Assembly: GCA_002386525.1 (NCBI GenBank)
Contig: DGIS01000004.1
Coordinates: 107,492 to 171,491, forward strand
Length of the DNA stretch: 64,000 nucleotides
Source of the DNA: Sphingobacterium sp. UBA4616
GTDB taxonomy: Bacteria; Bacteroidota; Bacteroidia; Sphingobacteriales; Sphingobacteriaceae
Reading direction: 5' to 3'
Shown: positions 14,876-46,439 of the stretch, piece by piece
Position numbering within the stretch: the stretch's first letter is position 1
Layout: the number at the start of each line of letters is the position of its first letter
The notes under the pieces: model-generated
Told to the model about the DNA's origin: nothing
The model's database searches: none
The model's input: the letters and a program-made list of their open reading frames with translations, nothing else
Translations under genes and position numbers: made by a program

Positions 14876-15011
14876 TTTCACCTCCCCATTCCCGCCATTC
14901 ACCGAGTTTTCCCGATCGTTAGTCTAAAGCCGATAGGCTAGGAGCGTGTTGTGTCGTAGTTTTGAGTCAACAAATAAGAACAGATAAACTAACACTATAA
15001 AAAAAGACATT
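14876..15011 (+). repeat. NTF2-family 5' leader module, copy 1
   Basis: The block starts TTTCACCTCCCCATTCCCGC and includes GTCTAAAGCCGATAGGCTAG and GTAGTTTTGAGTCAACAAAT, ending GACATT immediately before ATG. Near-identical blocks precede the family copies at 16744, 31183, 33248 and 46012. It presumably contains the promoter and 5' UTR. AAAGCCGATAGGCTA can form a small hairpin. Confidence 0.75.
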
Positions 15012-15458
15012 ATGAAAACGCTAGTAAAAACATTCGCCGCAGCAGCCCTAATCGCAGTATCAACTTTCGCTATGGCAGCTGAAGGACCTGGAGCAAAAGC
15101 AACAAAAGCTAACGTTAACCTTTCTACAGCAGATTTCGCTTTAGAGCACTACGTTGCGGTAACCACAGAGGGAGAATCAGCAGGGGTAGAGCAGTTATTT
15201 GCTGAAGATTTCAGCCAAAAGATCCAAGCCTCCAACACCCAAAAACACAGCCGTAACGAAGTGGTTAAATCCTTGAAAAAACAAAAAGGCGAAAGGCTGA
15301 ACTGTGCAGTAAGCACTGATATCATCGAGGAATCGGCAGACTATATGGTGGCTAAAGTGACGTTGAAATTTGAAAACTTCACCAAGACTGATCTGGTTAC
15401 TTTTGAGCGTGTGAGCAATGACTGGAAAGTATCCCAATCGATCAATTCGTATAAATAG
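15012..15458 (+). CDS. Secreted NTF2-like protein, family copy 1 (intact)
   Basis: This 148-aa protein has a Sec signal peptide (MKTLVKTFAAAALIAVSTF, cleavage near AMA-AEG), so it is exported. The mature part fits an NTF2-like/SnoaL-type alpha+beta fold, with a helix (ADFALEHYVAVTTEG), LFAEDF, then strands MVAKVTLKFENFTKTDLVTF and a closing WKVSQSINSYK. No catalytic residues can be assigned; such small secreted NTF2-like proteins are common in Bacteroidota and poorly characterised. It is one of five related copies in the window (the others near 16.9, 31.4, 33.3 and 46.2 kb); only this one and the 31389 copy are complete. The same leader and 3' hairpins accompany the copies. Confidence 0.8.
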   Translation: MKTLVKTFAAAALIAVSTFAMAAEGPGAKATKANVNLSTADFALEHYVAVTTEGESAGVEQLFAEDFSQKIQASNTQKHSRNEVVKSLKKQKGERLNCAVSTDIIEESADYMVAKVTLKFENFTKTDLVTFERVSNDWKVSQSINSYK

Positions 15459-16743: not shown

Positions 16744-16883
16744 TTTCACCTCCCCATTCCCACCATTCACCGGGTTTTCCTGATCGTTGGTCTAAAGCTG
16801 ATAGGCTAGAGGCGTGTTGTGTTGTAGTTTTGAGTCAACAAATAAGAATAGAAAAAAAACTAACACAATAAAATAAAGACATT
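16744..16883 (+). repeat. NTF2-family 5' leader module, copy 2
   Basis: The same layout as 14876-15011, with scattered substitutions (for example GATCGTTGGTCTAAAGCTGA), ends in GACATT before ATG 16884. Unlike copies 3 and 5 it contains no mini-element; in this copy the element lies after the start codon. Confidence 0.72.
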
Positions 16884-17402
16884 ATGAACCATCATGAGTG
16901 TATTCAAAGGACACTCATGATAGCTTTATCTCAAATAAAAAACAAATAATTTCGATAAAAAACGCTAGTTAAAACATTCGCAGCAGCAGCTTTAATCGCA
17001 GTATCAACATTTGCTATGGCAGCTGAAGGACCAGGAGCAAAAGTAACAAAAGCAAATGTTAACTTATCAACAGCAGACTTTGCTTTAGCGCACTATGTTG
17101 CGGTTACCACGGAGGGCGAATCAGCAGGCGTAGAGCAATTGTTCGCCGATGATTTCAATCAAAAGATCCAAGCAACGAATGCACAGTCTCATAGCCGTAG
17201 TGCTGTAGTGAAACTATTGAAAAAACAACAAGGAGAGAGGTTGAACTGTACAGTAAGCACCGATATCATCGAGGAGTCGGCAGACTATATGGTTGCCAAA
17301 GTAACATTGAAATTTGAAAACTTTACCAAAACGGATTTGGTTACCTTGGAGCGTGTTGGTAATGATTGAAAAGTATCCAAATCAATCAATTCGTATAAAT
17401 AG
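16884..17402 (+). pseudogene. NTF2-family copy 2, broken
   Basis: This is homologous over its full length to the 148-aa gene at 15012, but it is disabled twice. The 72-bp mini-element after ATGAA keeps the frame but introduces TAA stops, so translation from the native ATG ends after about 21 codons. The conserved Trp codon near the end (TGG in the intact copies) is TGA at 17367-17369. An internal ATG at 17016 lies at the signal-peptide cleavage site and would give an unexported fragment. The rest of the sequence stays very similar to the intact copies, so the damage looks recent. Confidence 0.85.
16889..16960 (+). mobile_element. 72-bp two-hairpin mini-element inside a gene start
   Basis: Relative to copy 1, exactly 72 bp are inserted between ATGAA and AACGCTAG. 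The insert starts CCATCATGAGTGT, forms a CATGAGTGT/ACACTCATG hairpin, then contains ATAGCTTTAT with a weaker stem, and ends TTTCGATAAAA. Related sequences lie at 31291 and 46122 but in the 5' UTR, so the element occupies a different site. It carries in-frame TAA stops. Mobility is inferred from these alternative positions. Confidence 0.6.
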
Positions 17403-17404
17403 AC

Positions 17405-17700
17405 TTTTACAAGTGGTGGTTTGCCAGTCATAAAGACAAACCACTAGTGAATCATATGTTTATGAAAGCCACATCGGGAGATGTGGCTTTTTTACGTCAA
17501 AAGGGCCTGATTCTCATCAGACCCTTTCTCTTAGCGCTTATTTGTACAGTAATTTTTATGTTTCTTATCGTTTCCTCTTTTTTGTTTCTTCATCCAATGT
17601 TTTTGAAGACTATTGGATTTTCACTGTACGTCGCCAATTTTTATGTTGAACCTTTCTTGAAAGGTAGCTTATAGCCGTTTTTGTATTATAAGAACAAGGG
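17405..17700 (+). terminator. 3' module of family copy 2 with two terminator hairpins
   Basis: A GTGGTTTG...CAAACCAC hairpin lies at about 17413-17444. AAAGCCACATC/GATGTGGCTTT (17465-17490) has a GGGA loop and T's, and a second stem lies at 17500-17527. A further 150 bp resemble sequence after copies 3 and 4, including CATCCAATGTTTTT. A 75-aa frame at 17447-17674 overlaps these hairpins and is most likely not a gene. Nothing else is seen up to 17832. Confidence 0.65.
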
Positions 17701-31182: not shown

Positions 31183-31388
31183 TACCTCCCCATTCCCGTC
31201 ATTCACCGAGTTTTCCCGATCGTTGGTCTAAAGCCCGTAGGCTAGGGACGTATTGTGTCGTAGTTTTGAGTCAACAAATAAGAACAAAAACCATCATGAT
31301 CATAGATGGAAAATGCTCATGATAGCTTCATCACAAATGAAGAACAAATTATTTAGATGAAAAACTAACACAATAAAATAAAGACATT
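31183..31388 (+). repeat. NTF2-family 5' leader, copy 3, containing a mini-element
   Basis: The leader (31183-31290) matches copy 1, including CACCGAGTTTTCCCGATCGT. At 31291-31360 the ~70-bp mini-element starts CCATCATGATCATAGATGG, forms CATGA-type and CTTCAT/ATGAAG hairpins, and ends TTTAGATGA. The remaining leader continues AAAACTAACACAATAAAATA to the start codon. Here the element is in the 5' UTR, unlike copy 2. Confidence 0.7.
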
Positions 31389-31835
31389 ATGAGAACTTTA
31401 GTAAAAACATTCGCAGCAGCAGCTTTAATCGCAGTATCAACTTTCGCTATGGCAGCTGAAGGACCAGGATCAAAAGCAACAAAAACAACCGTTAACCTTT
31501 CCACAGCAGACTTTGCTTTAGCGCACTATGTTGCGGTAACGACGGAGGGCGAATCAGCAGGAATAGAGCAATTATTCGCGGAAGATTTCAATCAAAAGAT
31601 CCAAGCCTCCAATGCACAAAATCATAGCCTTAGCGAAGTGGTTAAATCCTTGAAAAAGCAAAAAGGCGAAAAGCTGAACTGTACAATAAACACCGATATC
31701 ATCGATGAATCCGCAGACTATATGGTCGCTAAAGTGACGTTGAAATTTGAAAACTTCACGAAAACGGATCTGGTTACCTTAGAGCGTGTGGGTAATGACT
31801 GGAAAGTATCCAAATCGATCAATTCGTATAAATAA
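31389..31835 (+). CDS. Secreted NTF2-like protein, family copy 3 (intact)
   Basis: This 148-aa protein is very similar to the 15012 product. It has a Sec signal peptide (MRTLVKTFAAAALIAVSTF) and the same mature NTF2-like layout ending WKVSKSINSYK. Substitutions are concentrated in the mid-region (NAQNHSLSEVV; INTDIIDES). The 5' UTR carries the two-hairpin mini-element, which may alter translation or mRNA stability relative to copy 1. Two terminator hairpins follow. Its function is unknown. Confidence 0.8.
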   Translation: MRTLVKTFAAAALIAVSTFAMAAEGPGSKATKTTVNLSTADFALAHYVAVTTEGESAGIEQLFAEDFNQKIQASNAQNHSLSEVVKSLKKQKGEKLNCTINTDIIDESADYMVAKVTLKFENFTKTDLVTLERVGNDWKVSKSINSYK

Positions 31836-33247: not shown

Positions 33248-33534
33248 TTTCACCGCCCCATTCCCGCCACTCACCGAGTTTTCCGGTGTGTTAGTCTAAA
33301 GCCTGTAGGCTAGCGGCAAACCACAGCCGTAACGAAGTGGTTAGATCCTTGAAAAAGCAAAAAGGCGAAAAGCTGAACTGTACAATAAACACCGATATCA
33401 TCGATGAATCCGCAGACTATATGGTCGCTAAAGTGACGTTGAAATTTGAAAACTTCACGAAAACGGATCTGGTTACCTTAGAGCGTATGGGCAATGACTG
33501 GAAAGTATCCAAATCAGTCAATTCGTATAAGTAG
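33248..33534 (+). pseudogene. NTF2-family copy 4, leader fused to 3' half of gene
   Basis: The leader (33248-33317) runs to GTAGGCTAGCGGC and then joins directly to the middle of the coding sequence (CACAGCCGTAACGAAGTGG). The rest of the leader, the start codon, the signal peptide and about half of the gene are missing. The remaining frame encodes VVRSLKKQKGEKLN to SVNSYK without stops. A GTG at 33337 could only start an unexported fragment. The deletion looks clean. The lanthipeptide locus begins about 550 bp downstream. Confidence 0.85.
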
Positions 33535-33543
33535 TATTTAATA

Positions 33544-33680
33544 ACTAGTTGTCTGCTCGGTCAGATCGGCAGAAGACAACTAGTGAATCATATGTTTAAG
33601 TTTAGTTTAGAAGCCGCGTCGTAAGATGTGGCTTTTTTACGTCAAAAGGGCCTGATTCTCATCAGACACCTTCTCTCAGC
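33544..33680 (+). terminator. 3' module of family copy 4
   Basis: ACTAGTTGTCT (33544-33554) pairs with AGACAACTAGT (33574-33584); both arms differ from copy 1 yet stay complementary. The GCCGCGTC/GATGTGGC-type terminator with T6 follows at about 33612-33636, then an imperfect second stem near 33646. Confidence 0.7.
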
Positions 33681-33870
33681 GTTTATTTGTATAGTAACTT
33701 TTATGTTTCCTATCTTTTTCCCTTTTTTGTTTCGTCATCCAATGTTTTTTAATACAATTGGATCTTCAATGTACGACGCCAATTTTTATATTGAACCTTT
33801 CTTTCGGAAGGCAGCTTGTGTTCATTTTTATGTTAAGAATGGCTCTCTATTTATTCCAGTAATATTTTAA

Positions 33871-34076
33871 ATGTCATTGTGCGTACATGTTGTAGCGGGC
33901 CTCTGTTTATCGGAGAAACTTCACCTCCCGATTGGCTTAGCTTTCCAAATCGCTGGTCTTTAATGAAAGATATTAATTTCTTTAAACGCTGGTTTTATCA
34001 GCGCATATTCGGGTTTAGTGTAAAAAATAATGTACAATTTTTCTAAGCTACTACATTCGTATATCAAAATTATTGC
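33871..34076. other. AT-rich intergenic region before the lanthipeptide precursors
   Basis: There is no ORF. TTCACCTCCCGATTGGCTTA near 33918 weakly resembles the start of the NTF2-family leader, with CGCTGGTCTTTAATG after it. CGCTGGTTTTATCAGCG (about 33987) is a small inverted repeat. GGGTTTAGTGTAAAAAAT near 34012 resembles GGGTTTGGTGTAAAAAAA at 43543, after the LytTR gene. The precursor promoter is probably here, but no element can be fixed. Confidence 0.4.
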
Positions 34077-34126
34077 GGGACCCGAAAAGCAGTTAGAGTA
34101 GGGACACATTTATAAATCAAATTATC

Positions 34127-34282
34127 ATGAATTCAAAAAAATTAAAAATCAACAAGAAAAATGTAGCGAAGCTTAATGAAAGTATCTTAGACCAAATTCA
34201 GGGCGGACAAGCTGCGGCAGGTGATGTATGTGTATTCAAATCATCATCATGTACTATTAAAGAAAAAGAGGCTCTTTCCTAG
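34127..34282 (+). CDS. Class I lanthipeptide precursor 1
   Basis: This 51-aa peptide has a leader MNSKKLKINKKNVAKLNESI ending DQIQGG at residues 22-27, the GG-type leader of Bacteroidota natural-product precursors. Cleavage after GG by the C39 peptidase would release a 24-residue core. The core contains Cys35 and Cys42, the Ser39-Ser41 run, Thr43 and Ser51. LanB is expected to dehydrate Ser/Thr and LanC to add Cys thiols. Core-specific residues are Val34, Val36 and Ala49. It is the first of three tandem copies and too short for ordinary gene calling. Confidence 0.88.
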   Translation: MNSKKLKINKKNVAKLNESILDQIQGGQAAAGDVCVFKSSSCTIKEKEALS

Positions 34283-34384
34283 TGTTATACAAAAACATAA
34301 GGAGACTGATTCTTAAAAAGGAAGAAAAATAAGCGGAACCCGAAAAGCAGTTAGAGTAGGGACATATTTATAAATCAAATTATC

Positions 34385-34540
34385 ATGAATTCAAAAAAAT
34401 TAAAAATCAACAAGAAAAATGTAGCGAAGCTGAATGAAAGTATCTTAGACCAAATTCAGGGCGGACAAGCTGCGGCAGGTGATTTATGTGTATTCAAATC
34501 ATCATCATGTACTATTAAGGAAAAAGAGACTCTTTCCTAG
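34385..34540 (+). CDS. Class I lanthipeptide precursor 2
   Basis: This 51-aa peptide has a leader identical to copies 1 and 3. The core keeps Cys35, Ser39-41, Cys42, Thr43 and Ser51 but has Leu34 (Val in copies 1 and 3), Val36 and Thr49. Thr49 adds a possible dehydration site not present in precursor 1. It lies exactly 258 bp after copy 1 with the same upstream block. Confidence 0.88.
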   Translation: MNSKKLKINKKNVAKLNESILDQIQGGQAAAGDLCVFKSSSCTIKEKETLS

Positions 34541-34642
34541 TGTTATACAAAAACATAAGAAGACTGATTCTTAAAAAGGAAGAAAAATAAGCGGAACCCG
34601 AAAAGCAGTTAGAGTAGGGACATAATTATAAATCAAATTGTC

Positions 34643-34798
34643 ATGAATTCAAAAAAATTAAAAATCAACAAGAAAAATGTAGCGAAGCTTAATGAAAGTA
34701 TCTTAGACCAAATTCAGGGCGGACAAGCTGCGGCCGGTGATGTATGTATATTCAAATCATCATCGTGTACTATTAAAGAAAAAGAAACTCTTTCCTAG
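34643..34798 (+). CDS. Class I lanthipeptide precursor 3
   Basis: This 51-aa peptide has the same leader as copies 1 and 2. The core has Val34, Ile36 and Thr49 with the conserved SSSCT block. Silent changes occur (for example TCG for Ser41 and GCC for Ala31). Downstream sequence leaves the repeat pattern and leads to a hairpin before the modification genes. Confidence 0.88.
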   Translation: MNSKKLKINKKNVAKLNESILDQIQGGQAAAGDVCIFKSSSCTIKEKETLS

Positions 34799-34961
34799 TA
34801 CTATACAAAAAAACGTAAAGACGCTGATTTCTTAAATCAATGTTTAACAGTAGTATCAATGGCAAATCCTTGAACTCAAAGGAGGTTAAGGGGAGTAACT
34901 TGAGGAGGAATACTTCAAAATTTCTCTATGTCCAGTGAATGCAATCGTTTAATATACCAAT

Positions 34962-34987
34962 AAAGCACCTCATATCGGGGTGCTTTA
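34962..34987 (+). promoter_or_regulatory. Hairpin between precursors and modification genes
   Basis: AAAGCACC (34962-34969) and GGTGCTTT (34979-34986) form a stem around 9 nt; there is no T tract, so it is not a full terminator. In lanthipeptide operons such as nisin, a hairpin here partly blocks read-through and yields more precursor than enzyme; that role is inferred. Confidence 0.6.
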
Positions 34988-35002
34988 CCAAAGAAAAAAA
35001 TT

Positions 35003-35158
35003 ATGAAAAAAATCCAACTTCTTATCAGAAAATACCCAATACTTCGTGAAAACGAATCTCAATTTGTAGCGGCAGGGAATTCAAGAATGAATGACTTTGG
35101 TACTATTCCAACAATGTTGACCACAGCGCTAGAGCAGGACGTGACAAAAAACTACTAA
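35003..35158 (+). CDS. 51-aa Cys-free peptide upstream of LanC
   Basis: This ORF encodes MKKIQLLIRKYPILRENESQ followed by a stretch rich in Thr, Met and Asn, ending DVTKNY; it has no Cys. Its stop lies 1 bp before the LanC start, so it is probably translated with it. It has the same length as the precursors but no GG motif (the only near-match is AAGN). It could be a leaderless or regulatory peptide, an immunity factor or a helper of modification; I cannot decide. A basic, hydrophobic first half could be an amphipathic helix. Confidence 0.55.
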   Translation: MKKIQLLIRKYPILRENESQFVAAGNSRMNDFGTIPTMLTTALEQDVTKNY

Positions 35159-35159
35159 T

Positions 35160-36260
35160 ATGTTGTTAGAGAAATTGTTTAGAGGATTAGATAGAAGCCA
35201 ATCAGAAAATCTTGGACTCGATGGCGAAGGAGGATACTTTTTATTATCTTGCCTTCTATACTTGAAGGGTTATACTTTTATCAAAAGGGAAGATCTAACG
35301 TCTCTGAACAACTCTCTGATCCATAGCATAGAACATAAAGATCCCTTAATCCTAAATTATATAGATGGCCTAGCTGGAGTATATGCAATTTATGGATATT
35401 TGTCAAATAAAAAAGAGCTCTCATTTCTTCAATTTCCTGATTTTGATGAAGCCATTGATACACTTGCCGAAGAGCTGTTATATTTAGCAAATAGAAATAT
35501 TTGGGACAATTTATACGGTGCAGGAGGAATGCTTGCAGCTTTTTCTGTAGGTTCAGTGAATAGCCAATTGCTCGAAAGCGCATTGATTCAATTAAACGAA
35601 AAAACAAAAGACAATCAAATAAATGATTTAATTATAAATCCATTGATAGGTAAGTCTACCGTTGATTTTGGTATAGCTCATGGTTATGCCGGTTTAGGTA
35701 ATATATTGATCAACTTATTAGAAAAAGGATTGTTTACAGACCTTATCAATAATATTTTAGTCGACTTTTTAAAGCTTTTTGAAGATCAGCAATTAAATCT
35801 TGCAGATGAGAGAGCAAATGTTTTTCCAATAAAGTATGATATGGAAACTAGAAGCTATGATTATTCAGCAATAAATGGCTGGTGTTATGGAGACCTTGGC
35901 ATAGCGAATTTTGTTTTAAAATGTTCAGCATTGACAGATTTAAATCTTAAATACCCGAATTTGAAAAATGCTATTCAATCAATTGCGGAAAGACCGCTGC
36001 TTGACGATCAGAAAAATATTTTTCTTTGCCACGGTTTATCATCTAAATTTCTCATTCGTCAAGCGGTGAAGCACACCAATTTAAATACTATTAGTCTGGA
36101 TCAATCGTATAGTATCTCAGTTGAAAATTTTTTAAGTAGCAATAGTAGTGCAGAACTGAAGCAAAAATCTCTCCTAAATGGTGGTACAGGAGTTTGTCTT
36201 ACTTTAGCTATGATAGAAAGAGAACCCCATAATGATTTTTTAAAATTATTTTTTTTATGA
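35160..36260 (+). CDS. lanC: Lanthionine synthetase C family cyclase
   Basis: This 366-aa LanC-like protein keeps the family landmarks: FGIAHGYAGLGN, GWCYGDLG with zinc ligand Cys242, and LCHGLSSKF with Cys290 and His291. Zn activates substrate cysteines for Michael addition to dehydrated Ser/Thr, closing lanthionine rings. The protein is cytoplasmic. It starts 1 bp after the 51-aa Cys-free ORF, and its last codons overlap the LanB start by 4 bp (ATGA), so translation is coupled. The length is near normal for LanC. Confidence 0.9.
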   Translation: MLLEKLFRGLDRSQSENLGLDGEGGYFLLSCLLYLKGYTFIKREDLTSLNNSLIHSIEHKDPLILNYIDGLAGVYAIYGYLSNKKELSFLQFPDFDEAIDTLAEELLYLANRNIWDNLYGAGGMLAAFSVGSVNSQLLESALIQLNEKTKDNQINDLIINPLIGKSTVDFGIAHGYAGLGNILINLLEKGLFTDLINNILVDFLKLFEDQQLNLADERANVFPIKYDMETRSYDYSAINGWCYGDLGIANFVLKCSALTDLNLKYPNLKNAIQSIAERPLLDDQKNIFLCHGLSSKFLIRQAVKHTNLNTISLDQSYSISVENFLSSNSSAELKQKSLLNGGTGVCLTLAMIEREPHNDFLKLFFL

Positions 36261-39232
36261 AAGATTATCAAGTACAAAAAGATAGCCTGTTGGTCAGAAC
36301 TCCTTCTTTTACATATATCAATTCATTAACCGAAGATGATTTATCTAAATTCACAAATGACAAACAGTTTCTAGAAAGCCTTTATCTAGCCTCTGCAGAT
36401 TTGTATAGTGAACTCGAAAAACTTGAGTTTAACTATGATACTATTAGGAGGAATAGAAGATTAGTACAAAAATTAGCTAAATATATACTTAGGGCATCCA
36501 CCAGATCGACACCATTCGGGAAATTCTCTTCTGTAACATTAGGGCCAAATTTGCCAAATGAGTCAGAAAAGATAGTTTTAGGCGAGTTAAAACAGAAAAC
36601 TAGACTGGATATGGATGTTCTTTGCGAACTAAAAGAGCTGATATTATCAAAAGATGGGGTCAGAGAAAAACTAAGGTTTACCTTAAATTCGACATCTTAT
36701 GTATTAAGAGGTAGTTTAAGATACTATGAAGGAAAAATATCTGGGTTTAGGAAGAAATTTAATATTTCATCTGTCGAACTGGACGAATACCTGAAAGCTG
36801 TATATAATCTTTGTAGAAATACTTTTGTTGATTATGTAGATATCAGGGCAACTATCCAAAATTTCGGGTTTTCAGTCGAGGAAACTGATGATTACATAAA
36901 TAGTTTAATTTCTTCACAAATTATTGTAAGTGAACTTGAGCCGAGAATAATTGGAGGGAATTTTCTGTATGATCTGCTAGACATCCTAAGCAAGAAGGAA
37001 TCATTAAAATCTACATTAACAATTATTAAATCGTCTCTGACCCGAGTTATTCAGTTAATAGAAGATATAGATTATGAAAACAAACAGGAGAATATTTCAA
37101 AATATAAGGAAGTAGAGACTATTCTTATCGAACTTGGACTTGATCTAACCAAAAAAAAATTGTTTCAGGTTGATAGCTATCGTGAGTTGGAATCTGGTGG
37201 ACTGTCGCCAAAAACTATAGAAGAAATAGAAAAAATTCTACCTGTTTTCTGTCGATTATCCAAGCCTATTTATCGCGGAAAAATGCAATCTTTTGCCAGG
37301 AAGTTTTTCCAAAAATTTGAAACTAGAGAGGTGCCTTTATTGGAAGTGCTGGATCCTGAACTAGGAATTGGATATAATTTTGAAAATAACATTTCCAATG
37401 AAACAGAATGTTTTATCGAAGATTTTCTATTAAAAAAGTTAGTTGACGCTCATGTAAACAACAAATATGAAATAGAGTTAAAAGAAAGTGATATCAACGA
37501 TTTTCCTCTACACAAGTATGCATATCCAACTACCTCTACGTTAGTGGTTAAGGCCTTAAATCATGATGGTAAAAATCTTCTTATCGAGAGTTTTGGAGGC
37601 ATGAGCGCAGGGAATATTCTAGGAAGATTTTCTCATTTAGGAAGTCAGTTCAAGGAGGAACTTAAAAATATTGCAGACTTTGAAAAAGAGAGAAATCCCG
37701 ATCTACTTTTTTGCGATCTTTCACATCTTCCTGACAATAGGGTCGCTAACATTTTAAACAGAGATTTTTCGTTGGATTATGAGATTCCATTTTTATCAAA
37801 TTCATATAAGAATCCGGCGTATACGATTCCATTAGATGATATTATGGTTTCTGTTATCGATGATTTTGTTTATTTAAGGAGTAAAAAAATGGGTAGATTT
37901 CTAAGTCCTAAGATTATTTCTGCCCACAACACCAGTTATAATACACTTAAATTGTATGAATTTCTAGTTGATGTACAGACACAACACAATAACTTAGGAG
38001 CATACTTCTACTGGGGCAAATTTTCAAAGAACTTCGAGTTTCTTCCAAGGGTGGTTTTAAAAAATGTAATTGTTTTCCCGGCTACCTGGAAATTATCTAC
38101 TCAACAGATTTTAGAATTGTCAAACGACCAGGATGTGCATGTCCTAAGGCAGAAATACCTATTACCCCAATTCGTCGAATTGAAAGAGAATGACAATGAC
38201 CTTGTTATTGACTTAAATAATGAAATTTCCATTGCGATCCTTAAAGAATCGATAAAGAAAATGGAAAAAGTAATACTAAGGGAGCATCTGCGGCCAGAAT
38301 TGAATATAATTTCTCAGTCAAATAATGGAACATTCGTCCCCGTATCAAATCAATATGTACTGAAAGTTGAAAACTCAAAGGTCAGAAAAATACCAAGAAA
38401 CGAAAGGTTCAGTGAAAATGGAAATGTAAAAAGAAAGTTTGAGCTAAGTTCAGAGTGGCTATATTATAAAATTTACATGTCTGAAAGTAATTTTGATACT
38501 TATCTGGTAAAAATAGTGAAGCCAATCATATCTGAACTGCGAAAAAGCGGAATGTTAGAAAAATTCTTTTTCATTAAATATGAAGATTCAGATACCCATA
38601 TCAGGTTGCGGATTTGCCTAAAAAGTTTAGATGAAGTATGGAAATGTCGTTACATGATTGCTGAGAAGCTTTCCAATAAAGAGATTCTGCGCCTGTCAAT
38701 CGAAGAGTATGACCGTGAAATAGAAAGATATGGTGAGCACAATATCGAATCAATAGAGAACATATTTTATGAAGATAGTCTTTATTTTTTAGATAATAAT
38801 AATGATGATTACAACGATGAATTAAATGATGAGCTAAAAGCAGTAGCTATCCGCGTTAATACCATTATGGACTCTTTTGCTTATGCTTGGGAAGAGAAAT
38901 TTGATTTTTTTGAGCGGTTGATATATGACATTGGATATTTCGGTAAAAAGGAAAACCGTGTTAGTGGAGATTTGATCTTTAGGGAATTAGGGAAGGACCT
39001 TATTCGTTCTTTACATTTAAATTCGGAAGAAGATAGCAAGTTTTCCATCCATGCCAAGATTCTAAAAGAAAATAATTCTCCTACTGCATTTGAAAACTTA
39101 ATGCGTTCAATTGTTCATATGACGGTGAACAGATATCTTGCTAAGTTCGATAGAACTAAAGAATATATGATTTACTATTTGTTGAAGAAAGGCTATACAT
39201 CCTTAATAAAAATAAATAATTATGTTGTTTAG
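36257..39232 (+). CDS. lanB: Full-length class I lanthipeptide dehydratase
   Basis: This 991-aa protein has an N-terminal glutamylation domain (about residues 20-700; LRASTRSTPFGKFSSVTLGP, the usual lantibiotic dehydratase start) and a C-terminal elimination domain of the SpaB_C type (about 735-985; WLYYKIYMSE; RLRICLK; YDREIERYG). The two-domain enzyme uses glutamyl-tRNA to activate Ser/Thr and then eliminates glutamate. Unlike pinensin-type Bacteroidota clusters, where this function is split as I recall, it is one polypeptide here. It overlaps LanC by 4 bp and the transporter by 11 bp. Confidence 0.9.
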   Translation: MKDYQVQKDSLLVRTPSFTYINSLTEDDLSKFTNDKQFLESLYLASADLYSELEKLEFNYDTIRRNRRLVQKLAKYILRASTRSTPFGKFSSVTLGPNLPNESEKIVLGELKQKTRLDMDVLCELKELILSKDGVREKLRFTLNSTSYVLRGSLRYYEGKISGFRKKFNISSVELDEYLKAVYNLCRNTFVDYVDIRATIQNFGFSVEETDDYINSLISSQIIVSELEPRIIGGNFLYDLLDILSKKESLKSTLTIIKSSLTRVIQLIEDIDYENKQENISKYKEVETILIELGLDLTKKKLFQVDSYRELESGGLSPKTIEEIEKILPVFCRLSKPIYRGKMQSFARKFFQKFETREVPLLEVLDPELGIGYNFENNISNETECFIEDFLLKKLVDAHVNNKYEIELKESDINDFPLHKYAYPTTSTLVVKALNHDGKNLLIESFGGMSAGNILGRFSHLGSQFKEELKNIADFEKERNPDLLFCDLSHLPDNRVANILNRDFSLDYEIPFLSNSYKNPAYTIPLDDIMVSVIDDFVYLRSKKMGRFLSPKIISAHNTSYNTLKLYEFLVDVQTQHNNLGAYFYWGKFSKNFEFLPRVVLKNVIVFPATWKLSTQQILELSNDQDVHVLRQKYLLPQFVELKENDNDLVIDLNNEISIAILKESIKKMEKVILREHLRPELNIISQSNNGTFVPVSNQYVLKVENSKVRKIPRNERFSENGNVKRKFELSSEWLYYKIYMSESNFDTYLVKIVKPIISELRKSGMLEKFFFIKYEDSDTHIRLRICLKSLDEVWKCRYMIAEKLSNKEILRLSIEEYDREIERYGEHNIESIENIFYEDSLYFLDNNNDDYNDELNDELKAVAIRVNTIMDSFAYAWEEKFDFFERLIYDIGYFGKKENRVSGDLIFRELGKDLIRSLHLNSEEDSKFSIHAKILKENNSPTAFENLMRSIVHMTVNRYLAKFDRTKEYMIYYLLKKGYTSLIKINNYVV

Positions 39233-41399
39233 GCAGTTCCCACATTTTATTCAGAAAGATGTGATGGATTGTGGTCCAACATGTCTAAAAATTATAGCTT
39301 ATTTCTATGGAAAAAAGATGGACATCAATTACTTAAGAGATGTCTCAGGAACCAATCGTATGGGTAGCACAATCGGTGGACTAAGGAATGCTGCCATCAA
39401 AATCGGTTTTGAGTCTGATGCCATTAAGATTAGTTTCCAGGATCTAATAACAGAAGATTTAGTTCCATGTATAATATATTGGCAACAAAAGCATTTTGTG
39501 GTGCTATATAAGATCACTTCAAAATATATGTATATATCTGATCCAGCAGCAGGTCTGATCAGGTATAAACATGAGGAATTTAAAAGATATTTCAGTGATG
39601 AAGGCGAAGGAATCTTACTCTTATTAGAGCCGAATGAGAACTTTAAAGATCTCACTGAAGGGCTCGAAACTAAAAGTTCTGTCAGTTTCGACCATGTATT
39701 TGATACCCTTTTTCAGTATAAGAAGACAATATTCGTATTGATTTTGGCGCTGGTACTTACAAGTTTGATGCAAATGACGCTGCCCTTTATTAATCAGAAA
39801 ATAATTGATATAGGGATCATCGGAAAGTCTTTTTCTTTTATTTACTTGATGCTTCTGGGGCAGATTTTTCTATTTTTCGGAAAGACCCTTATAGAGGTCA
39901 TACGGACTAGAGTACTTATTCATCTCAGTACAAGAGTCAACCTAAATCTTATTTCGACCTTTTTCTACAAATTGACGAAATTACCGCTAAAGTTTTTCGA
40001 TTCGAAATTAGCGGGTGATATTCTTCAACGAATATTAGATCATCAAAGGGTGGATAGTTTTATTACGAGTGGATTACTAAATATTGTATTTACACTATTA
40101 GCCTTTTTTATTTTTGGAGGAGTTCTATTTTACTATAATCCTATTATATTTCTAATTTTTCTTGTTGGAAGCGTCTTGCATTTTTCATGGATCAGTCTTT
40201 TTATTAAAAAACGGGCATTAATAGATTATAAAAGATTTAACCAGCTATCAACAAATCAGGATAAAAATATTGAGCTAATTTATGGAATGCAGGAAATTAA
40301 GCTTCACAATGCCGAAAACTGCAAGATTTCTCAGTGGCAGAAATTGCAGGTTGAATTATTCAAAATTAATTTAAATAGCATAGAACTAAAACAGCATCAG
40401 ATCACCGGTGCTGCCCTGATCAATGAGCTTAAAAATATCTTTATTACTTTCATGGCTGCCCGATTGGTTTTGAACCAGGAACTGACATTGGGAATTATGC
40501 TGTCAATTTCTTTTATTATAGGTCAATTAAATGGAGCAGTCGTACAGATTGTTGAGTTTATTCAAAGTTATCAAGAAGCTAAAATGAGTATGGATAGAAT
40601 TAATGATATACATCATTACGAGGATGAAAGCCAATTGGAATCCGATAATGTCAACATAGTGAAAGCGAATGATATCATACTTAAAGATGTCTCATTCTCT
40701 TACGATGGCAAAAAAAATGTATTGAATAGGATAAACTTAACCATACCTTCAAATAAGATTACTGCAATCGTTGGTACTAGTGGGAGTGGAAAAACAACGC
40801 TCTTAAAACTCCTGTTGAAATTTTATAAGCCCACTAGCGGCACAATCGTGATCGAAGATATAGATATCAATTCTATATCAAATCACTCATGGAGGAAAAT
40901 ATGTGGGACTGTAATGCAAGAAGGGTTTATTTTTACAGATACCATTAGAAATAATATCGTTGTCCATGAAGCAGAGATAGATTACCAAAGATTGGAAAAT
41001 GCTGTGAAAATCGCTAATATTTATGATTTTATCTATTCATTACCAATGGGGTACGAGACTATTTTAGGGACAAATGGAATTGGGATCAGCACAGGACAGA
41101 AACAGCGCATTCTAATAGCGAGAGCTGTTTACAAAAATCCAGACTATCTTTTTTTTGATGAGGCAACAAGTGCTCTTGATGCTAATAATGAGAAAAAGAT
41201 CACCGAAAATTTAGATCATTATTTCGAAGGGAAGACGGTACTTGTTATTGCACATAGATTAAGTACAGTAAAAAATGCTGATCAGATTATTGTTATGAAG
41301 GATGGCTATATTGTCGAAACTGGCACACACCAAGAACTTACCAAACAAAAAACTGAATATTTTCAGTTAGTAAAAAATCAATTAGAACTAGGTGCATAA
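39222..41399 (+). CDS. lanT: C39-peptidase ABC transporter for the lanthipeptide
   Basis: This 725-aa protein has an N-terminal C39 peptidase domain with Gln11, catalytic Cys17 (MDCGPTC), His91 (QKHFVVLY) and Asp107 (ISDP), which cleaves leaders after GG. A six-helix membrane domain (~165-455) follows, then an ATPase domain with Walker A GTSGSGKTT, signature STGQKQR, Walker B YLFFDEATSALD and H-loop AHRLS. It removes leaders and exports the peptides across the inner membrane. It overlaps lanB by 11 bp and shares one base with the following gene. Confidence 0.92.
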   Translation: MLFRQFPHFIQKDVMDCGPTCLKIIAYFYGKKMDINYLRDVSGTNRMGSTIGGLRNAAIKIGFESDAIKISFQDLITEDLVPCIIYWQQKHFVVLYKITSKYMYISDPAAGLIRYKHEEFKRYFSDEGEGILLLLEPNENFKDLTEGLETKSSVSFDHVFDTLFQYKKTIFVLILALVLTSLMQMTLPFINQKIIDIGIIGKSFSFIYLMLLGQIFLFFGKTLIEVIRTRVLIHLSTRVNLNLISTFFYKLTKLPLKFFDSKLAGDILQRILDHQRVDSFITSGLLNIVFTLLAFFIFGGVLFYYNPIIFLIFLVGSVLHFSWISLFIKKRALIDYKRFNQLSTNQDKNIELIYGMQEIKLHNAENCKISQWQKLQVELFKINLNSIELKQHQITGAALINELKNIFITFMAARLVLNQELTLGIMLSISFIIGQLNGAVVQIVEFIQSYQEAKMSMDRINDIHHYEDESQLESDNVNIVKANDIILKDVSFSYDGKKNVLNRINLTIPSNKITAIVGTSGSGKTTLLKLLLKFYKPTSGTIVIEDIDINSISNHSWRKICGTVMQEGFIFTDTIRNNIVVHEAEIDYQRLENAVKIANIYDFIYSLPMGYETILGTNGIGISTGQKQRILIARAVYKNPDYLFFDEATSALDANNEKKITENLDHYFEGKTVLVIAHRLSTVKNADQIIVMKDGYIVETGTHQELTKQKTEYFQLVKNQLELGA

Positions 41400-41761
41400 T
41401 GGAAAAAAAAGAGTTAGATAGAAGTCTTGGAAGAATCCCTCTAGTCCCCTTAATAGCCGTACTTATCGCCGTATTCTTTATGAGTGGTATCGTGTACGAA
41501 ATGATCTATAATAGAAAGGATAGCATACTTCAAATGGACAGGTTCAAAATTCAATATGTTAATCGGGAATTTGGATTTATAATTATCAGTCAGGAAAATG
41601 GGAAGGATTTATCAAAGAGCCGAACCCCAGAACGTGCCCACATTGAAGGATACCCCGTGAAAATTCTGCGACTTAATGATAGCATCCTATGTATAATTCC
41701 ACAAAACAAAAATCTTACTCAATTCTCAAATAAAAAAACGATTATATTTGATGAGTATTGA
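41399..41761 (+). CDS. Small membrane protein of the lanthipeptide operon
   Basis: This 120-aa protein has one membrane helix (about residues 13-33; IPLVPLIAVLIAVFF) followed by an ~85-residue extracytoplasmic beta-rich domain. It starts within the transporter stop codon and overlaps the kinase start, so it belongs to the operon. In many C39-ABC loci a HlyD-type adaptor of ~400 aa sits here. This one is far shorter and lacks the coiled coil, so it is not a normal adaptor. It may be an immunity or accessory protein. I recognise no family. Confidence 0.65.
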   Translation: MEKKELDRSLGRIPLVPLIAVLIAVFFMSGIVYEMIYNRKDSILQMDRFKIQYVNREFGFIIISQENGKDLSKSRTPERAHIEGYPVKILRLNDSILCIIPQNKNLTQFSNKKTIIFDEY

Positions 41762-42812
41762 TAAATTTTTAATGAAAAAACAATTTGAACCGATCAAAGT
41801 TCAATTAATTCTTTGGACTTTATATTTTTTATTGAAATTAGTGTTATTATATATTCTTGAGAGTGATTTTTATTTTATTGATTTTTTTCTATCACATGTA
41901 CTCTTGGCAGTGTTTTTCTATATAAATTCTGTTCATGTCCTTAAATATTGTAAAGTAAATTTATTCAAAACAGTTTATCTATCTATTGTCTGTTTAGCTT
42001 TATATTTAATCTTGCGTTATCTAATTAAAATTCCTTTTATTAACATTTTATATGATATTAAACAGGAATTTCAATTAAAACTATTTCTTATCGAATCAGG
42101 ATATCTGTATTTTCAGTTGTATCTCGTCTCTTTTGGATACTGGACTATTAAAAGGAGTGCCACCATACTACAAAAAGTGGAAAAAGAAAAAACTGAGATT
42201 CTCATTGAAAAGCAGAGTAAGGAGATTCTAACGGCAAGGATGGAACTCGATTTTCTTAAAGCCCAAATTAATCCACATTTTCTTTATAATACTTTAAGCT
42301 TCCTATATGGTAAATCGGTAAACAATTCGCCTGAACTTGCTGAGGCAATTTATTTGCTTTCTAATATCATGCGTTATTCGTTATCAACCACTGAAGGGGA
42401 AAATCATTATGTGCGGTTATCAAAAGAACTTGAACATATCGAAAATTTGATTAAAATTTATAAAATCAGATTCAACAACCAGATTTATGTAAAATTGAGT
42501 TATGACCCATTATTAAAAGATTTTGAAGTTATTCCTTTAATTTTCATTACTGTAATAGAAAATGCTTTTAAGTATGGTATACTGCATGATCCAAAAAAAC
42601 CTATTACTATATCTTTTAAAATAGAAGAAAATTATTTATATTTCACTTGTATTAACCATGTTCCGGTTACACCCAGAAAATATAATGAAAGTTCGGGAAT
42701 AGGATTAAAGAATACGATTCGAAGACTTACCATATATTACAAAGACAGGTTTGAGCATAAAAATTATGTGGACGGCGACAGGTATATTTTTGAAGTATTA
42801 TTAAGGATTTGA
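41751..42812 (+). CDS. LytS-like membrane histidine kinase
   Basis: I use ATG 41751 (353 aa); TTG 41748 precedes it and ATG 41772 follows. About four membrane helices occupy residues ~17-135, and a coiled linker follows. The His_kinase domain carries the family motif KAQINPHFLYNTL (His acceptor), and the ATPase region includes ENAFKYG and SGIGLKNTIRRL. The response-regulator gene starts 2 bp after its stop. It may sense the mature peptide or cell-envelope state and control the locus. The first codons overlap the small membrane protein gene. Confidence 0.9.
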   Translation: MSIDKFLMKKQFEPIKVQLILWTLYFLLKLVLLYILESDFYFIDFFLSHVLLAVFFYINSVHVLKYCKVNLFKTVYLSIVCLALYLILRYLIKIPFINILYDIKQEFQLKLFLIESGYLYFQLYLVSFGYWTIKRSATILQKVEKEKTEILIEKQSKEILTARMELDFLKAQINPHFLYNTLSFLYGKSVNNSPELAEAIYLLSNIMRYSLSTTEGENHYVRLSKELEHIENLIKIYKIRFNNQIYVKLSYDPLLKDFEVIPLIFITVIENAFKYGILHDPKKPITISFKIEENYLYFTCINHVPVTPRKYNESSGIGLKNTIRRLTIYYKDRFEHKNYVDGDRYIFEVLLRI

Positions 42813-42814
42813 TA

Positions 42815-43522
42815 ATGAATGCTTGTATTATAATTGATGATGAACATCATATTGTTGAATTACTAACTGGTTATGTTAATAAGACAGCCCAACTTGAACT
42901 GAAGAAAACCTTTAACAATCCTTTACAGGCACTGGAATACCTGGATAAACATGAAGACATCGATTTGGTGTTTATAGATATCAATATGGAGGAGTTGTCG
43001 GGGCTAGAGTTTGTCAGGATAAAAAACGGAAAGCATAAATTTATTATGGTCACTGCATTTGAAGAGTATGCGGTTCAAGGGTATGAAAATGATATCGTGG
43101 ATTATCTGTTGAAGCCGGTTACCTTTGAAAGATTTATGACTGCTGTGGGCAAATTCAATAGAAGGAATAATGTCGGCAGCACAAGTACTCCAAAACTGGT
43201 TAAAGACTTTTTGTTTGTCAAAGGAGATCAGAAAGGCAAGTATCTAAAAGTAAAGCTCAATGAGGTGCTTTATATAGAAGGATTAAAAAATTATGTGTCA
43301 ATATCTTTTTTAAACAACAAATTGACGACATTGATGAATATGAAAGATCTTGAGCTTACTTTAATGAATTCAGGTTTTATCAGAATTCACCGTTCCTTTA
43401 TTGTTTCAATCTCCAAGATAGCAGCATTCAATGGCGGGCATCTGAAATTGGAAGGATCAGATCGCCTGTTCCCTATCGGGGAATCCTATAAAGAACACCT
43501 GATGAAAGTTCTCGAAATTTAG
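42815..43522 (+). CDS. LytTR-family response regulator
   Basis: I start at ATG 42815 (MNACIIIDDEHHI), giving 235 aa. The receiver domain has Asp8/Asp9 and phospho-acceptor Asp55 (VFIDIN), with the conserved Lys in DYLLKPV. The C-terminal LytTR DNA-binding domain is seen in YLKVKLNEVLYIEGLKNYVSI and GFIRIHRSFIVSI. With the adjacent kinase it forms a cognate pair likely to regulate the lanthipeptide genes. LytTR sites usually are direct repeats upstream of promoters; I could not find a convincing pair in front of the precursors. A strong terminator follows. Confidence 0.9.
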   Translation: MNACIIIDDEHHIVELLTGYVNKTAQLELKKTFNNPLQALEYLDKHEDIDLVFIDINMEELSGLEFVRIKNGKHKFIMVTAFEEYAVQGYENDIVDYLLKPVTFERFMTAVGKFNRRNNVGSTSTPKLVKDFLFVKGDQKGKYLKVKLNEVLYIEGLKNYVSISFLNNKLTTLMNMKDLELTLMNSGFIRIHRSFIVSISKIAAFNGGHLKLEGSDRLFPIGESYKEHLMKVLEI

Positions 43523-43552
43523 TATTCGTCCTTAAAAAATAGGGTTTGGTGT

Positions 43553-43589
43553 AAAAAAAGACTTGATTTAAATTTCAAGTCTTTTTTTT
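43553..43589 (+). terminator. Strong terminator at the end of the regulator operon
   Basis: AAAAAAAGACTTGA (43553-43566) pairs with TCAAGTC plus T8 (43575-43589), leaving an AT loop. It separates the modification/export/regulation operon from the barrel gene, so the latter needs its own promoter or read-through. Confidence 0.85.
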
Positions 43590-43611
43590 GTTGAAATTAA
43601 CACGTATAACA

Positions 43612-45966
43612 ATGAGGACACTGTTACTGCTAACTATTTGCTTTATATCACTACATGCTAAAAGCCAAAACTTATATTCTGGTACTATTGTAGATCAAAA
43701 ATCATTACAAGGTTTAGAAGGAGTATCTATAAAGATTATCGGCCCTGCCGAAAATCAGTCAAGTAAAGTGTTGATATCTGCTAGTGATGGTTCATTTGTG
43801 CTTAAAGATATTCATGCTGGAGGGTATAAAATGGTACTAACAGCGATAGGGTACAAAAGTTCTGAACGTGAAATTGTTATTCCCAGCATTTCCTCTAAAG
43901 TTGACACGACTTTTCTAATTAAGAATGAGCTCATCCTTGATGAAGTTCAGGTGACTGGGACGAAAAAATTGATAAATTATAAAACGGATCGTGTCGTACT
44001 TAATCTGGACGGGGCTGATATAGCTCAGGGTAATGATGTCATGGCTATATTGGGCATGAGTCCTTATGTACAGGTTGTTAATAATCAAATTAAGGTTCAA
44101 GGTAAAAATAATATAGCTGTTTTCCTTGATAAGCAACGTATACCCGAAACTTCTTTGCAAATGGTATTGTCTACATTGTCAGGTGATAAAATTGAAAGAA
44201 TAGAAATCATCACTGCACCTTCATCTAAATATGATGGAAATACTTCGGCTGTTATTGAGATCTTTACCAAAAAGAAAAAGACGAAAGGTATTATTGGTTC
44301 AATAGAAGGAAGTTTATTTAAAGGCGTAAAAGCTGGGGGAAGTGGAGGTTTAACTGCTAGCGTAAATCTTGGGAAAATTTATTTTGACGCCGATGCAAAT
44401 CATAACACAAAAAAAATGATTGAAAAAGGTTATCAAAATAGATCACTTATAAAACATTCGGAAGAAATCGGAGCGTTAAATCAAGATATAGACTTTTCAG
44501 ACAATAATTATAATTCCGGATCATATTCAGCTGGTGTGGGCTATCAGCCATCTAACAATGACAAATTGGCGATTACTTTTAGAAGAAATTACAATAAATA
44601 CGATGGTATTGGGAATGTTTTCATTACTAAAACCGAAAATGGAAATTTATCGAAAATACATAGCAGGAATGATATCAGATATGATATCAACAATTATACA
44701 TTTGGTACCAATTATATTCGAACGCTAGACACTTTGGATTCACGGATTCAGTTTTCAGGAGATGTATTAGTATATGAAAATGAAAAAAATCAGAAACTGG
44801 AAGAAATTATCGAAGGCAAAAAACAGTATACTTTTAATAATACATATTCCAAATTTAATGCAAAGACATTTGCAATAGATTTTGATAAGAACTATAACAC
44901 TCTTAAGTATAGCGTCGGAACGAAATATGTTCACACGCAGAGTGATAATACACAGTTGTTTAATCACACTGATCAAACTGATAGCTTGGAAAGCCGTTTT
45001 AAAGAATCTATTTTTGCACTTTATCTTTCTGGCGAATATAAATTTTCTGAAAAAGCCAATCTCAGCTTAGGGTTTAGGGGTGAAAATACTGATTATCAGC
45101 TTTCTATTCAGCAGGAACTCAAAAAGAACTATTTCCATTTTTTACCTAAAGTGAGATTTGATTATTTGTTCAATGAAAGTTATACTTTCTCTGTAGGTTA
45201 TGCAAGAAACATAAATAGACCTTCATACGGCAAATTGATACCATACGAATTTATCATAGACAATTACACGGTTAGTCGTGGGAATTCAAAATTAATTCCG
45301 GAAGTTAATCATGAGCTTTTTATAAATGCCGGTCTGAAGGAAACTAACCTCACTTTAAACTATATCATAACAAACAATAGTTTGAACGATTATTATCTAT
45401 ATAACCCTGAAACATATAAATATACGCTTACTACAGACAATTTCTACAATAAATATCAATGGACTCTGAGTGCTTCTCGTTCTTTCAATTTTGTGAAATT
45501 TTGGAATTCCAATCTATATTTAGAAGGTAACCATCTAAAATTTAGTTATCCGGGACTGCAGGACGGGGAGATCAAAAGTAAGTCTAAGTATTATGGGAAT
45601 CTAAGTTTCTATAACAGTTTCGCGATAGCAAACGGATGGAATGTAGAAGCAGCGTTTTTTGGTAGTACTGCATTTTTGGACGGACTTTACAGTATTGGCG
45701 CTTTTTCAAACACTACCTTGGGCGTCCGGAAATCTCTTTTTGGAAAAAAGGCATTTATAAAACTTTCTATATCAGATCTTTTTTATGATGCTAATATGAA
45801 AGTAAAAACAGAAGACCTGCCAGCGATATCTCAGAGTTATCTTAAAAGGGATACGAGAAAAATTACGCTCAGTTTTAAATACAATTTTTCTGCAGGAGCT
45901 AAATCAAAGATTAAAAGTTTGGAAAATGATGGAAATAAAACCTTGAAGGAGAGACTTGGAATGTAG
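43612..45966 (+). CDS. Outer-membrane beta-barrel protein with carboxypeptidase-like regulatory domain
   Basis: I start at ATG 43612 (MRTLLLLTICFISL), giving 784 aa; the longer frame begins in the terminator. A signal peptide ends near AKSQ. A carboxypeptidase-like regulatory domain (~20-105; GTIVDQKSLQGLEGVSIKII) and a plug-like region (LNLDGADIAQGNDVMAIL; DKIERIEIITAPSSKYDGN) follow, then a TonB-receptor-type barrel of the OMP_b-brl_3 kind. It lies after the regulator terminator but on the same strand and in the same AT-rich block. It may carry the lanthipeptide across the outer membrane or give immunity; that is inference. Confidence 0.85.
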   Translation: MRTLLLLTICFISLHAKSQNLYSGTIVDQKSLQGLEGVSIKIIGPAENQSSKVLISASDGSFVLKDIHAGGYKMVLTAIGYKSSEREIVIPSISSKVDTTFLIKNELILDEVQVTGTKKLINYKTDRVVLNLDGADIAQGNDVMAILGMSPYVQVVNNQIKVQGKNNIAVFLDKQRIPETSLQMVLSTLSGDKIERIEIITAPSSKYDGNTSAVIEIFTKKKKTKGIIGSIEGSLFKGVKAGGSGGLTASVNLGKIYFDADANHNTKKMIEKGYQNRSLIKHSEEIGALNQDIDFSDNNYNSGSYSAGVGYQPSNNDKLAITFRRNYNKYDGIGNVFITKTENGNLSKIHSRNDIRYDINNYTFGTNYIRTLDTLDSRIQFSGDVLVYENEKNQKLEEIIEGKKQYTFNNTYSKFNAKTFAIDFDKNYNTLKYSVGTKYVHTQSDNTQLFNHTDQTDSLESRFKESIFALYLSGEYKFSEKANLSLGFRGENTDYQLSIQQELKKNYFHFLPKVRFDYLFNESYTFSVGYARNINRPSYGKLIPYEFIIDNYTVSRGNSKLIPEVNHELFINAGLKETNLTLNYIITNNSLNDYYLYNPETYKYTLTTDNFYNKYQWTLSASRSFNFVKFWNSNLYLEGNHLKFSYPGLQDGEIKSKSKYYGNLSFYNSFAIANGWNVEAAFFGSTAFLDGLYSIGAFSNTTLGVRKSLFGKKAFIKLSISDLFYDANMKVKTEDLPAISQSYLKRDTRKITLSFKYNFSAGAKSKIKSLENDGNKTLKERLGM

Positions 45967-46011: not shown

Positions 46012-46220
46012 TTTCACCTCCCATTCCCTTCATTCACCTATTATTCCTGAACGTTAGTCTAAAGCCCATAGGCTAGGGGCCTATTGTGTCGTAGTTTTGA
46101 GTCAACAAATAAGAACAAAAACCATCATGAGCATAGATGGAAAATGTTCATGATAGCTTCATCACAAATGAAGAACAAAATATTTAGATGAAAAAACTAA
46201 CACTATAAAATAAAGACATT
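46012..46220 (+). repeat. NTF2-family 5' leader, copy 5, containing a mini-element
   Basis: The leader (46012-46121) matches copies 1-4. A mini-element at 46122-46193 (CCATCATGAGCATAGATGG...TTTAGATGAAAA) sits at the same UTR position as in copy 3. Its first hairpin reads CATGAGCAT/ATGTTCATG. Confidence 0.7.
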
Positions 46221-46439
46221 ATGAGAACTTTCGTAAAAACAATCGCAGCAGCAGCTTTAATCGCAGTATCAACATTTACTATGGCAGCTGAAGGATCTGG
46301 GCGAAAGGCTACAAAAACCAACTTTAACCTGTCCAGAGCAGACTTTGCTTTAGCGCACTATGTTGCGGTAACGACGGAGGGAGAATCAGCAGGAATAGAG
46401 CAATTATTCGCGGAAGTAATCATCAGTTTTAGACATTGA
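46221..46439 (+). pseudogene. NTF2-family copy 5, 3'-truncated
   Basis: The frame starts with the family signal peptide (MRTFVKTIAAAALIAVSTF) and follows the family to EQLFAE. It then runs into unrelated sequence (VIISFRH) and stops just before the minus-strand metallopeptidase-like gene at 46447. About half of the mature domain is missing. Extra substitutions in the retained part (ALTMAAEGSGRK-type changes) suggest relaxed constraint. A remnant of the family 3' end is seen at 49420, beyond three minus-strand genes. Confidence 0.8.

Follow-up and report, generated by a model that had tools for sequence, protein, structure and literature searches.

The window analysed here is a stretch of 64,000 nucleotides from Sphingobacterium sp. 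UBA4616 (assembly GCA_002386525.1, contig DGIS01000004.1, positions 107,492 to 171,491, forward strand), and the subject of this report is a putative class I lanthipeptide cluster within it. Positions 34127–43522 of the window hold three precursor (LanA) genes, a 51-codon open reading frame (ORF), genes for a LanC cyclase, a LanB dehydratase, a C39-peptidase ATP-binding cassette (ABC) exporter (LanT) and a 120-residue protein termed p120, and a LytS/LytTR pair; a gene for an outer-membrane β-barrel follows. All named genes, including that of the barrel, lie on the + strand with open reading frames according to the ORF listing and the family scans (Table 1). A first-pass annotation, made from the nucleotide sequence, had described three precursors with Gly-Gly (GG) leaders, LanC, a full-length two-domain LanB, the exporter, the kinase, the regulator and the barrel on a single strand; each of these was recovered, and the 51-codon ORF and the p120 gene, which that annotation had passed over, were added.

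Three tandem units with one precursor gene each were identified by repeat finding. Units 2 and 3 were 97 and 86% identical to unit 1, respectively, and chance would not produce such identity; the synonymous share of the codon differences between the copies was 2/4, 3/5 and 5/7. The leader scored 25.4 bits against the NF038153 ‘class I lanthipeptide’ model, for which the curated cut-off is 22, and carries the motif LKINKKNVAKL followed by GG, which fits the pattern LxLxKx5L with Ile replacing the second Leu. The cores comprise 24 residues, with five or six Ser/Thr and two Cys (Cys8 and Cys15) in each. The core motif GD[VL]C[VI]FK[ST]SSCTI was present in all seven precursors compared, and in none of the seven does a Ser/Thr lie between GG and the first Cys (Cys8). 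Because no dehydratable residue precedes it, Cys8, if used, must close a ring backwards onto an acceptor downstream. Backward rings are known from the class II lanthipeptide cinnamycin. Cores 2 and 3 (34385–34798) differ by Leu/Val and Val/Ile swaps; they are isobaric (calculated mass 2515.230 Da) and therefore indistinguishable by intact mass. For the LanA1 core the calculated mass is 2471.204 Da, and one to five dehydrations would give [M+H]+ values of 2454.200 down to 2382.158. The cores contain neither the nisin-like motif SxxxCTP(G/S)C nor TxTxEC, both quoted as lipid II motifs in the available part of PMC7268733, and a nisin-like lipid II binder was rejected as the type for lack of the former.

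For a wider survey of cores, precursors were selected by leader pattern from 52 loci and the window, giving 45 distinct candidates, from which the three window precursors and two plain non-precursors (loci L021 and L022) were left out. Among the remaining 40 cores, which are not independent and which the pattern confines to GG leaders with a Cys-bearing core, three lacked a Ser/Thr ahead of the first Cys; these came from a single genome (G001), and each contained at least four Cys. The closest other cores were of the type AAAGSCVLLSCN (genome G291), in which a Ser adjoins the Cys.

LanB covers the glutamylation and elimination domains over their length, above the family cut-offs, and residues 31–981 of its 991 align with the NisB chain 6m7y. 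The motifs RxxxRSTPFG, RLD, QxD, GRFS, HIRLRI, ExERYG and a late HxxxNR are kept relative to NisB, and we take these to be the catalytic positions of that enzyme. In LanC the zinc ligands Cys242, Cys290 and His291, as named in the first-pass annotation, are retained together with the catalytic His174, as seen in the sequence and in an alignment; the roles of these residues are described in the available parts of PMC9889658 and PMC9934072. The peptidase part of LanT contains Cys17 and the motifs HFVVLY and ISDP, so that the Cys/His/Asp of the C39 family is intact as had been claimed, and it aligns with PCAT1-type proteases (PDB entry 4ry2, E=5e-22; also the AMS/PCAT domain 6mpz).

Successive overlaps of 4, 11, 1, 14 and 4 bp, based on the start codons given by the ORF tool, join the six genes that run from LanC to the regulator, which are therefore likely to form a single operon. 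The 51-codon ORF, for which no family was found in the model scans, ends one base upstream of LanC. The earlier description of the genes as overlapping or abutting is accurate from LanC to the regulator and for the 51-codon ORF and LanC; it does not apply to the precursor genes, which are spaced by 102 bp and end 204 bp before the 51-codon ORF, or to the barrel gene. An 11-bp hairpin lies inside the 204-bp gap, and the fold of 34799–35010 has a minimum free energy of −44.7 kcal/mol (z=−3.16), these values being for the whole of that stretch. The hairpin is a candidate attenuator or processing/stabilizing element, and its use could let precursor RNA exceed enzyme RNA. A terminator-like hairpin precedes the ATG of the barrel gene, which is therefore probably a separate transcription unit.

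Table 1. Features of the lanthipeptide cluster, in window coordinates
Feature	Position	Strand	Evidence and remarks
Three tandem 258-bp units, one precursor gene each	34075–34848	+	Repeat finding
LanA1, core QAAAGDVCVFKSSSCTIKEKEALS	34127–34282	+	NF038153 E=1.2e-5, 25.4 bits
LanA2, core QAAAGDLCVFKSSSCTIKEKETLS	34385–34540	+	96% identical to LanA1
LanA3, core QAAAGDVCIFKSSSCTIKEKETLS	34643–34798	+	96% identical to LanA1
11-bp RNA hairpin, without U-run	34961–34987	+	Position counted off the sequence; lies after the precursor array and ahead of the biosynthetic genes
51-codon ORF	35003–35158	+	ORF listing; no Cys; candidate coding sequence
LanC cyclase, 366 residues	35160–36260	+	PF05147 E=4.5e-17
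LanB dehydratase, 991 residues, both domains	36257–39232	+	PF04738 E=8.8e-117, PF14028 E=5.2e-41
LanT, C39-peptidase ABC exporter, 725 residues	39222–41399	+	PF03412 E=4.2e-31, PF00664, PF00005
p120, 120 residues	41399–41761	+	No family match in model scans
LytS-type sensor kinase	41751–42812	+	PF06580 E=5.1e-22 (on ORF listed from 41748)
LytTR response regulator	42815–43522	+	PF00072 E=2.2e-17, PF04397 E=7.4e-16 (on ORF listed from 42809)
Terminator-like hairpin and T-run	~43558–43589	+	Read off the sequence; terminator scan made no call there
Outer-membrane β-barrel, TonB-receptor-like, 784 residues from ATG	43612–45966	+	PF14905 E=1.8e-55, PF00593 E=8e-12, PF13715 E=1.5e-9 (on ORF listed from TTG 43588; likely start ATG 43612)

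The sensor kinase carries the motif NPHFLYN with His176 (numbered from the ATG at 41751). The predicted structure of p120, of low confidence (mean predicted local distance difference test score 67.6, six sequences), combines a single long hydrophobic helix at the N-terminus with a small β-domain; structure comparison matched common small-barrel folds only. In ColV-type export across both membranes a membrane-fusion protein accompanies the C39 exporter; p120, whose gene follows that of the exporter, was considered for this part, and a BLASTP alignment with a Spirosoma HlyD-family protein covered 25 columns (E=0.011). As a small, narrowly distributed protein placed between the exporter and the sensor kinase, p120 is a candidate for immunity or for an export adaptor that passes the peptide on, these being conjectured as its most likely roles. 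The barrel protein aligned at 25% over 808 columns with its counterpart on a lanthipeptide plasmid from Chryseobacterium. Four flanking genes were also scanned: two gave no family, one encodes an AraC-type regulator and one an α/β-hydrolase.

The G+C content at 34075–45966 is 32.8%. It spans 36.6–46.0% across 58 sliding windows that match the locus in length and do not overlap it, and the low value of the locus fits a lateral origin. A module with a lumazine-binding-like gene (PF12893) occurs five times, whole or in part (14880–15457, 16748–17623, 31184–31834, 33252–33783 and 46016–46416), with the copies ~78–93% alike in their main segments. Truncated copies flank the cluster, the left one (33252–33783) retaining the C-terminal half of the gene and the right one (46016–46416) the N-terminal half. 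The scattered copies may be a sign of a recombination-prone region.

Relatives of the precursor were sought among ~5.8 billion proteins and all four candidates matched, one from Sphingobacterium sp. Lzh-3 at 96%, which is already called ‘class I lanthipeptide’ by NCBI, and three at 55–65%. For LanB, where scoring was confined to the 7992 candidates with the most words in common, two relatives were found at 92% (one from Sphingobacterium sp. Lzh-3) and the remainder of the 46 matches at ≤32%; a second, distant Sphingobacterium LanB (P0041) was at 27%. Judged by sequence, the window LanB forms a separate branch. Five relatives of p120 were found at 71–98%, including one from Sphingobacterium siyangense, and every close relative of the precursor, LanB and p120 that bears an organism name is from Sphingobacterium, which is the basis for calling the genome Sphingobacterium-like. 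NF038153 scored above its cut-off in nine of 395 genomes, a set drawn evenly from the phylum and including the source genome, and in none of 14 control genomes.

Nine window proteins were compared by tblastn (E≤1e-3) with 12 loci, two of which were overlapping pieces of one plasmid. LanB was matched in 11 of the 12, the full-length C39 exporter in seven, LanC in five, the barrel, at least partially, in five, and the kinase and LytTR regulator together in four. LanA, the 51-codon ORF and p120 were matched in none of the 12, an absence that carries little weight, since the loci were excerpts and a short query can readily escape detection. On two Hymenobacter plasmids (L019, NZ_CP110137.1; L022, NZ_CP141187.1) LanB lies beside an opposed kinase/LytTR pair, and no LanC or precursor gene is annotated within ~9 kb.

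The precursor array, LanC, LanB, C39 exporter, kinase/LytTR pair and barrel are shared with Chryseobacterium sp. G0186 plasmid NZ_CP033919.1, which differs in that 14 precursors are annotated, LanC and LanB are each present twice, an LLM flavin oxidoreductase is encoded and p120 has no match. A Spirosoma oryzicola plasmid contains the same kinds of gene; six precursors are annotated on it, together with two LanCs and an LLM oxidoreductase. The Sphingobacterium sp. Lzh-3 core, close as its precursor and LanB are, starts with Lys, whereas that of the window starts with Gln. The peptides of Pedobacter lusitanus NL19 are said to be of class I and from the same bacterial family as the source of the window, and the cyclase of its PedA15 system reportedly lacks the usual zinc ligands; all three are present in the window LanC, and a PedA15 type was set aside on this ground.

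In the part available, Walker 2020 (PMC7268733) describes Bacteroidetes class I LanAs with an LxLxKx5L leader, many of them ending in GG and often clustered with a C39 protease. This group and the window have the leader motif, the GG end, the clustered protease, LanB and LanC in common; the window core is unlike theirs, and the window leader departs from the motif at the second Leu, where it has Ile. The same text gives the pinensins as the sole isolated Bacteroidetes class I lanthipeptides as of 2020. Their phylum and class are those assigned to the window, but their LanB is split, and the pinensin type was ruled out by the single-chain 991-residue LanB found here. According to the accessible text of Lee 2023 (PMC9993889), the class I systems ChmABC of Chryseobacterium sp. 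OV715 and RuiABC of Runella limosa yielded modified peptides in Escherichia coli, with every Cys of the Chryseobacterium peptide reported in rings and three thioether rings in that of Runella. These systems share the phylum and class I LanA, LanB and LanC with the window, but their peptides have seven dehydrations and three rings, whereas the window core has five or six Ser/Thr and two Cys. The Pedobacter lusitanus peptides are also cited as published (Bothwell 2021), and PedA15.2 is described as cleaved by the GG protease LahT150. The statement in the first-pass annotation that few Gram-negative class I lanthipeptides are characterized is outdated in view of Walker 2020, Lee 2023 and the Pedobacter lusitanus peptides. 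Its suggestion that the product may be undescribed agrees with searches of the open-licence PMC literature, which were word-based (sequence not being searchable there) and in which no paper describing this product was recognized; the part of PMC9100364 available held nothing on this cluster, and PMC12844086, as far as accessible, mentions a lanthipeptide cluster that antiSMASH detected in Sphingobacterium nripensae DR205 but gives no sequence for it.

We conclude, with a probability of about 0.88, that this Sphingobacterium-like genome carries at the locus a class I lanthipeptide cluster belonging to the GG-leader subgroup of Bacteroidota. Both this class assignment and cleavage after GG at export, as first proposed, are supported by the family models, the active-site residues and the near-identical relatives; we infer each chemical step, the regulation, the outer-membrane route and the bioactivity. 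LanB would glutamylate the core Ser/Thr from Glu-tRNA and eliminate glutamate to yield dehydroalanine or dehydrobutyrine (Dha/Dhb), LanC would add both core cysteines onto Dha/Dhb, and the C39 domain of LanT would cleave after Gly-Gly during export of the peptide across the inner membrane. The three near-identical precursor copies would provide a higher dose as well as sequence variants. Control of the cluster probably falls to the LytS/LytTR pair. At the outer membrane, the barrel probably either handles the peptide or is a receptor for it.

Several points weigh against this assignment. The evidence is genomic, and Cys8 lacks an upstream partner, so that rings at both Cys are not assured. Four residues ahead of its first zinc Cys, LanC has Ile238 at the site of MadC Arg294, an Arg that is proposed in the available part of PMC9889658 to be essential for acid/base chemistry. 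In our own alignment register it is kept in four of six compared LanC-like proteins, both exceptions also being without the zinc Cys; the Arg is proposed to be important, not class-defining. A phmmer search (E≤1) gave no match of LanC to a PDB chain. Among the ten locus proteins and four flanking genes, to which the scan was confined, none was recognized as an immunity transporter, a membrane-fusion protein or TolC.

The conserved core might represent a new scaffold, in which a backward ring from Cys8 onto a downstream dehydroalanine lies beside or overlaps a normal SSSC ring, the cyclase is a class I zinc enzyme without the active-site Arg and delivery is aided by p120 as an inner-membrane protein; this proposal is tentative. 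LanB could also dehydrate the core with Cys8 left out of any thioether, either free, in a disulphide with Cys15 or with only Cys15 cyclized onto an upstream Dha. The absence of Ser/Thr ahead of Cys8 in all seven precursors and the Ile that replaces the Arg in LanC are consistent with such a product, whereas the zinc ligands and catalytic His of LanC are all kept and the Cys of the Chryseobacterium peptide and the three thioethers of the Runella peptide (PMC9993889) speak for ring formation; we regard an unused Cys8 as possible but doubtful.

With the same chemistry, the product might instead serve chiefly as an autoinducer or signal for the clustered LytS/LytTR pair and not as an antibiotic. 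The overlap of the kinase and regulator genes with the export operon, the relatives of both in four of the 12 compared lanthipeptide loci, the lack of recognized immunity genes among the proteins scanned and the lack of both lipid II motifs argue for such a role. Clusters with a two-component pair can, however, make an antibiotic that doubles as its own inducer, and nisin is an antibiotic that also induces its own two-component-controlled cluster. A secreted effector would be equally compatible with three precursor copies, and we consider a product that is mainly a signal unlikely. That the cluster is decaying or silent, as the truncated copies of a repeated gene on either side and a G+C content below that of the surroundings might suggest, is highly improbable given that each gene is open over its full length and that close relatives of the precursor, LanB and p120 exist.

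The cluster belongs to a known kind and is ordinary as such; its core and the substitution in its cyclase might surprise specialists. As an addition to the class I lanthipeptide clusters of Gram-negative bacteria it is compact, complete and testable, and its two-Cys core is strongly conserved. The geometry of this core forces either a backward thioether or an unused Cys, and either outcome would be informative on how LanC chooses the direction of a ring.

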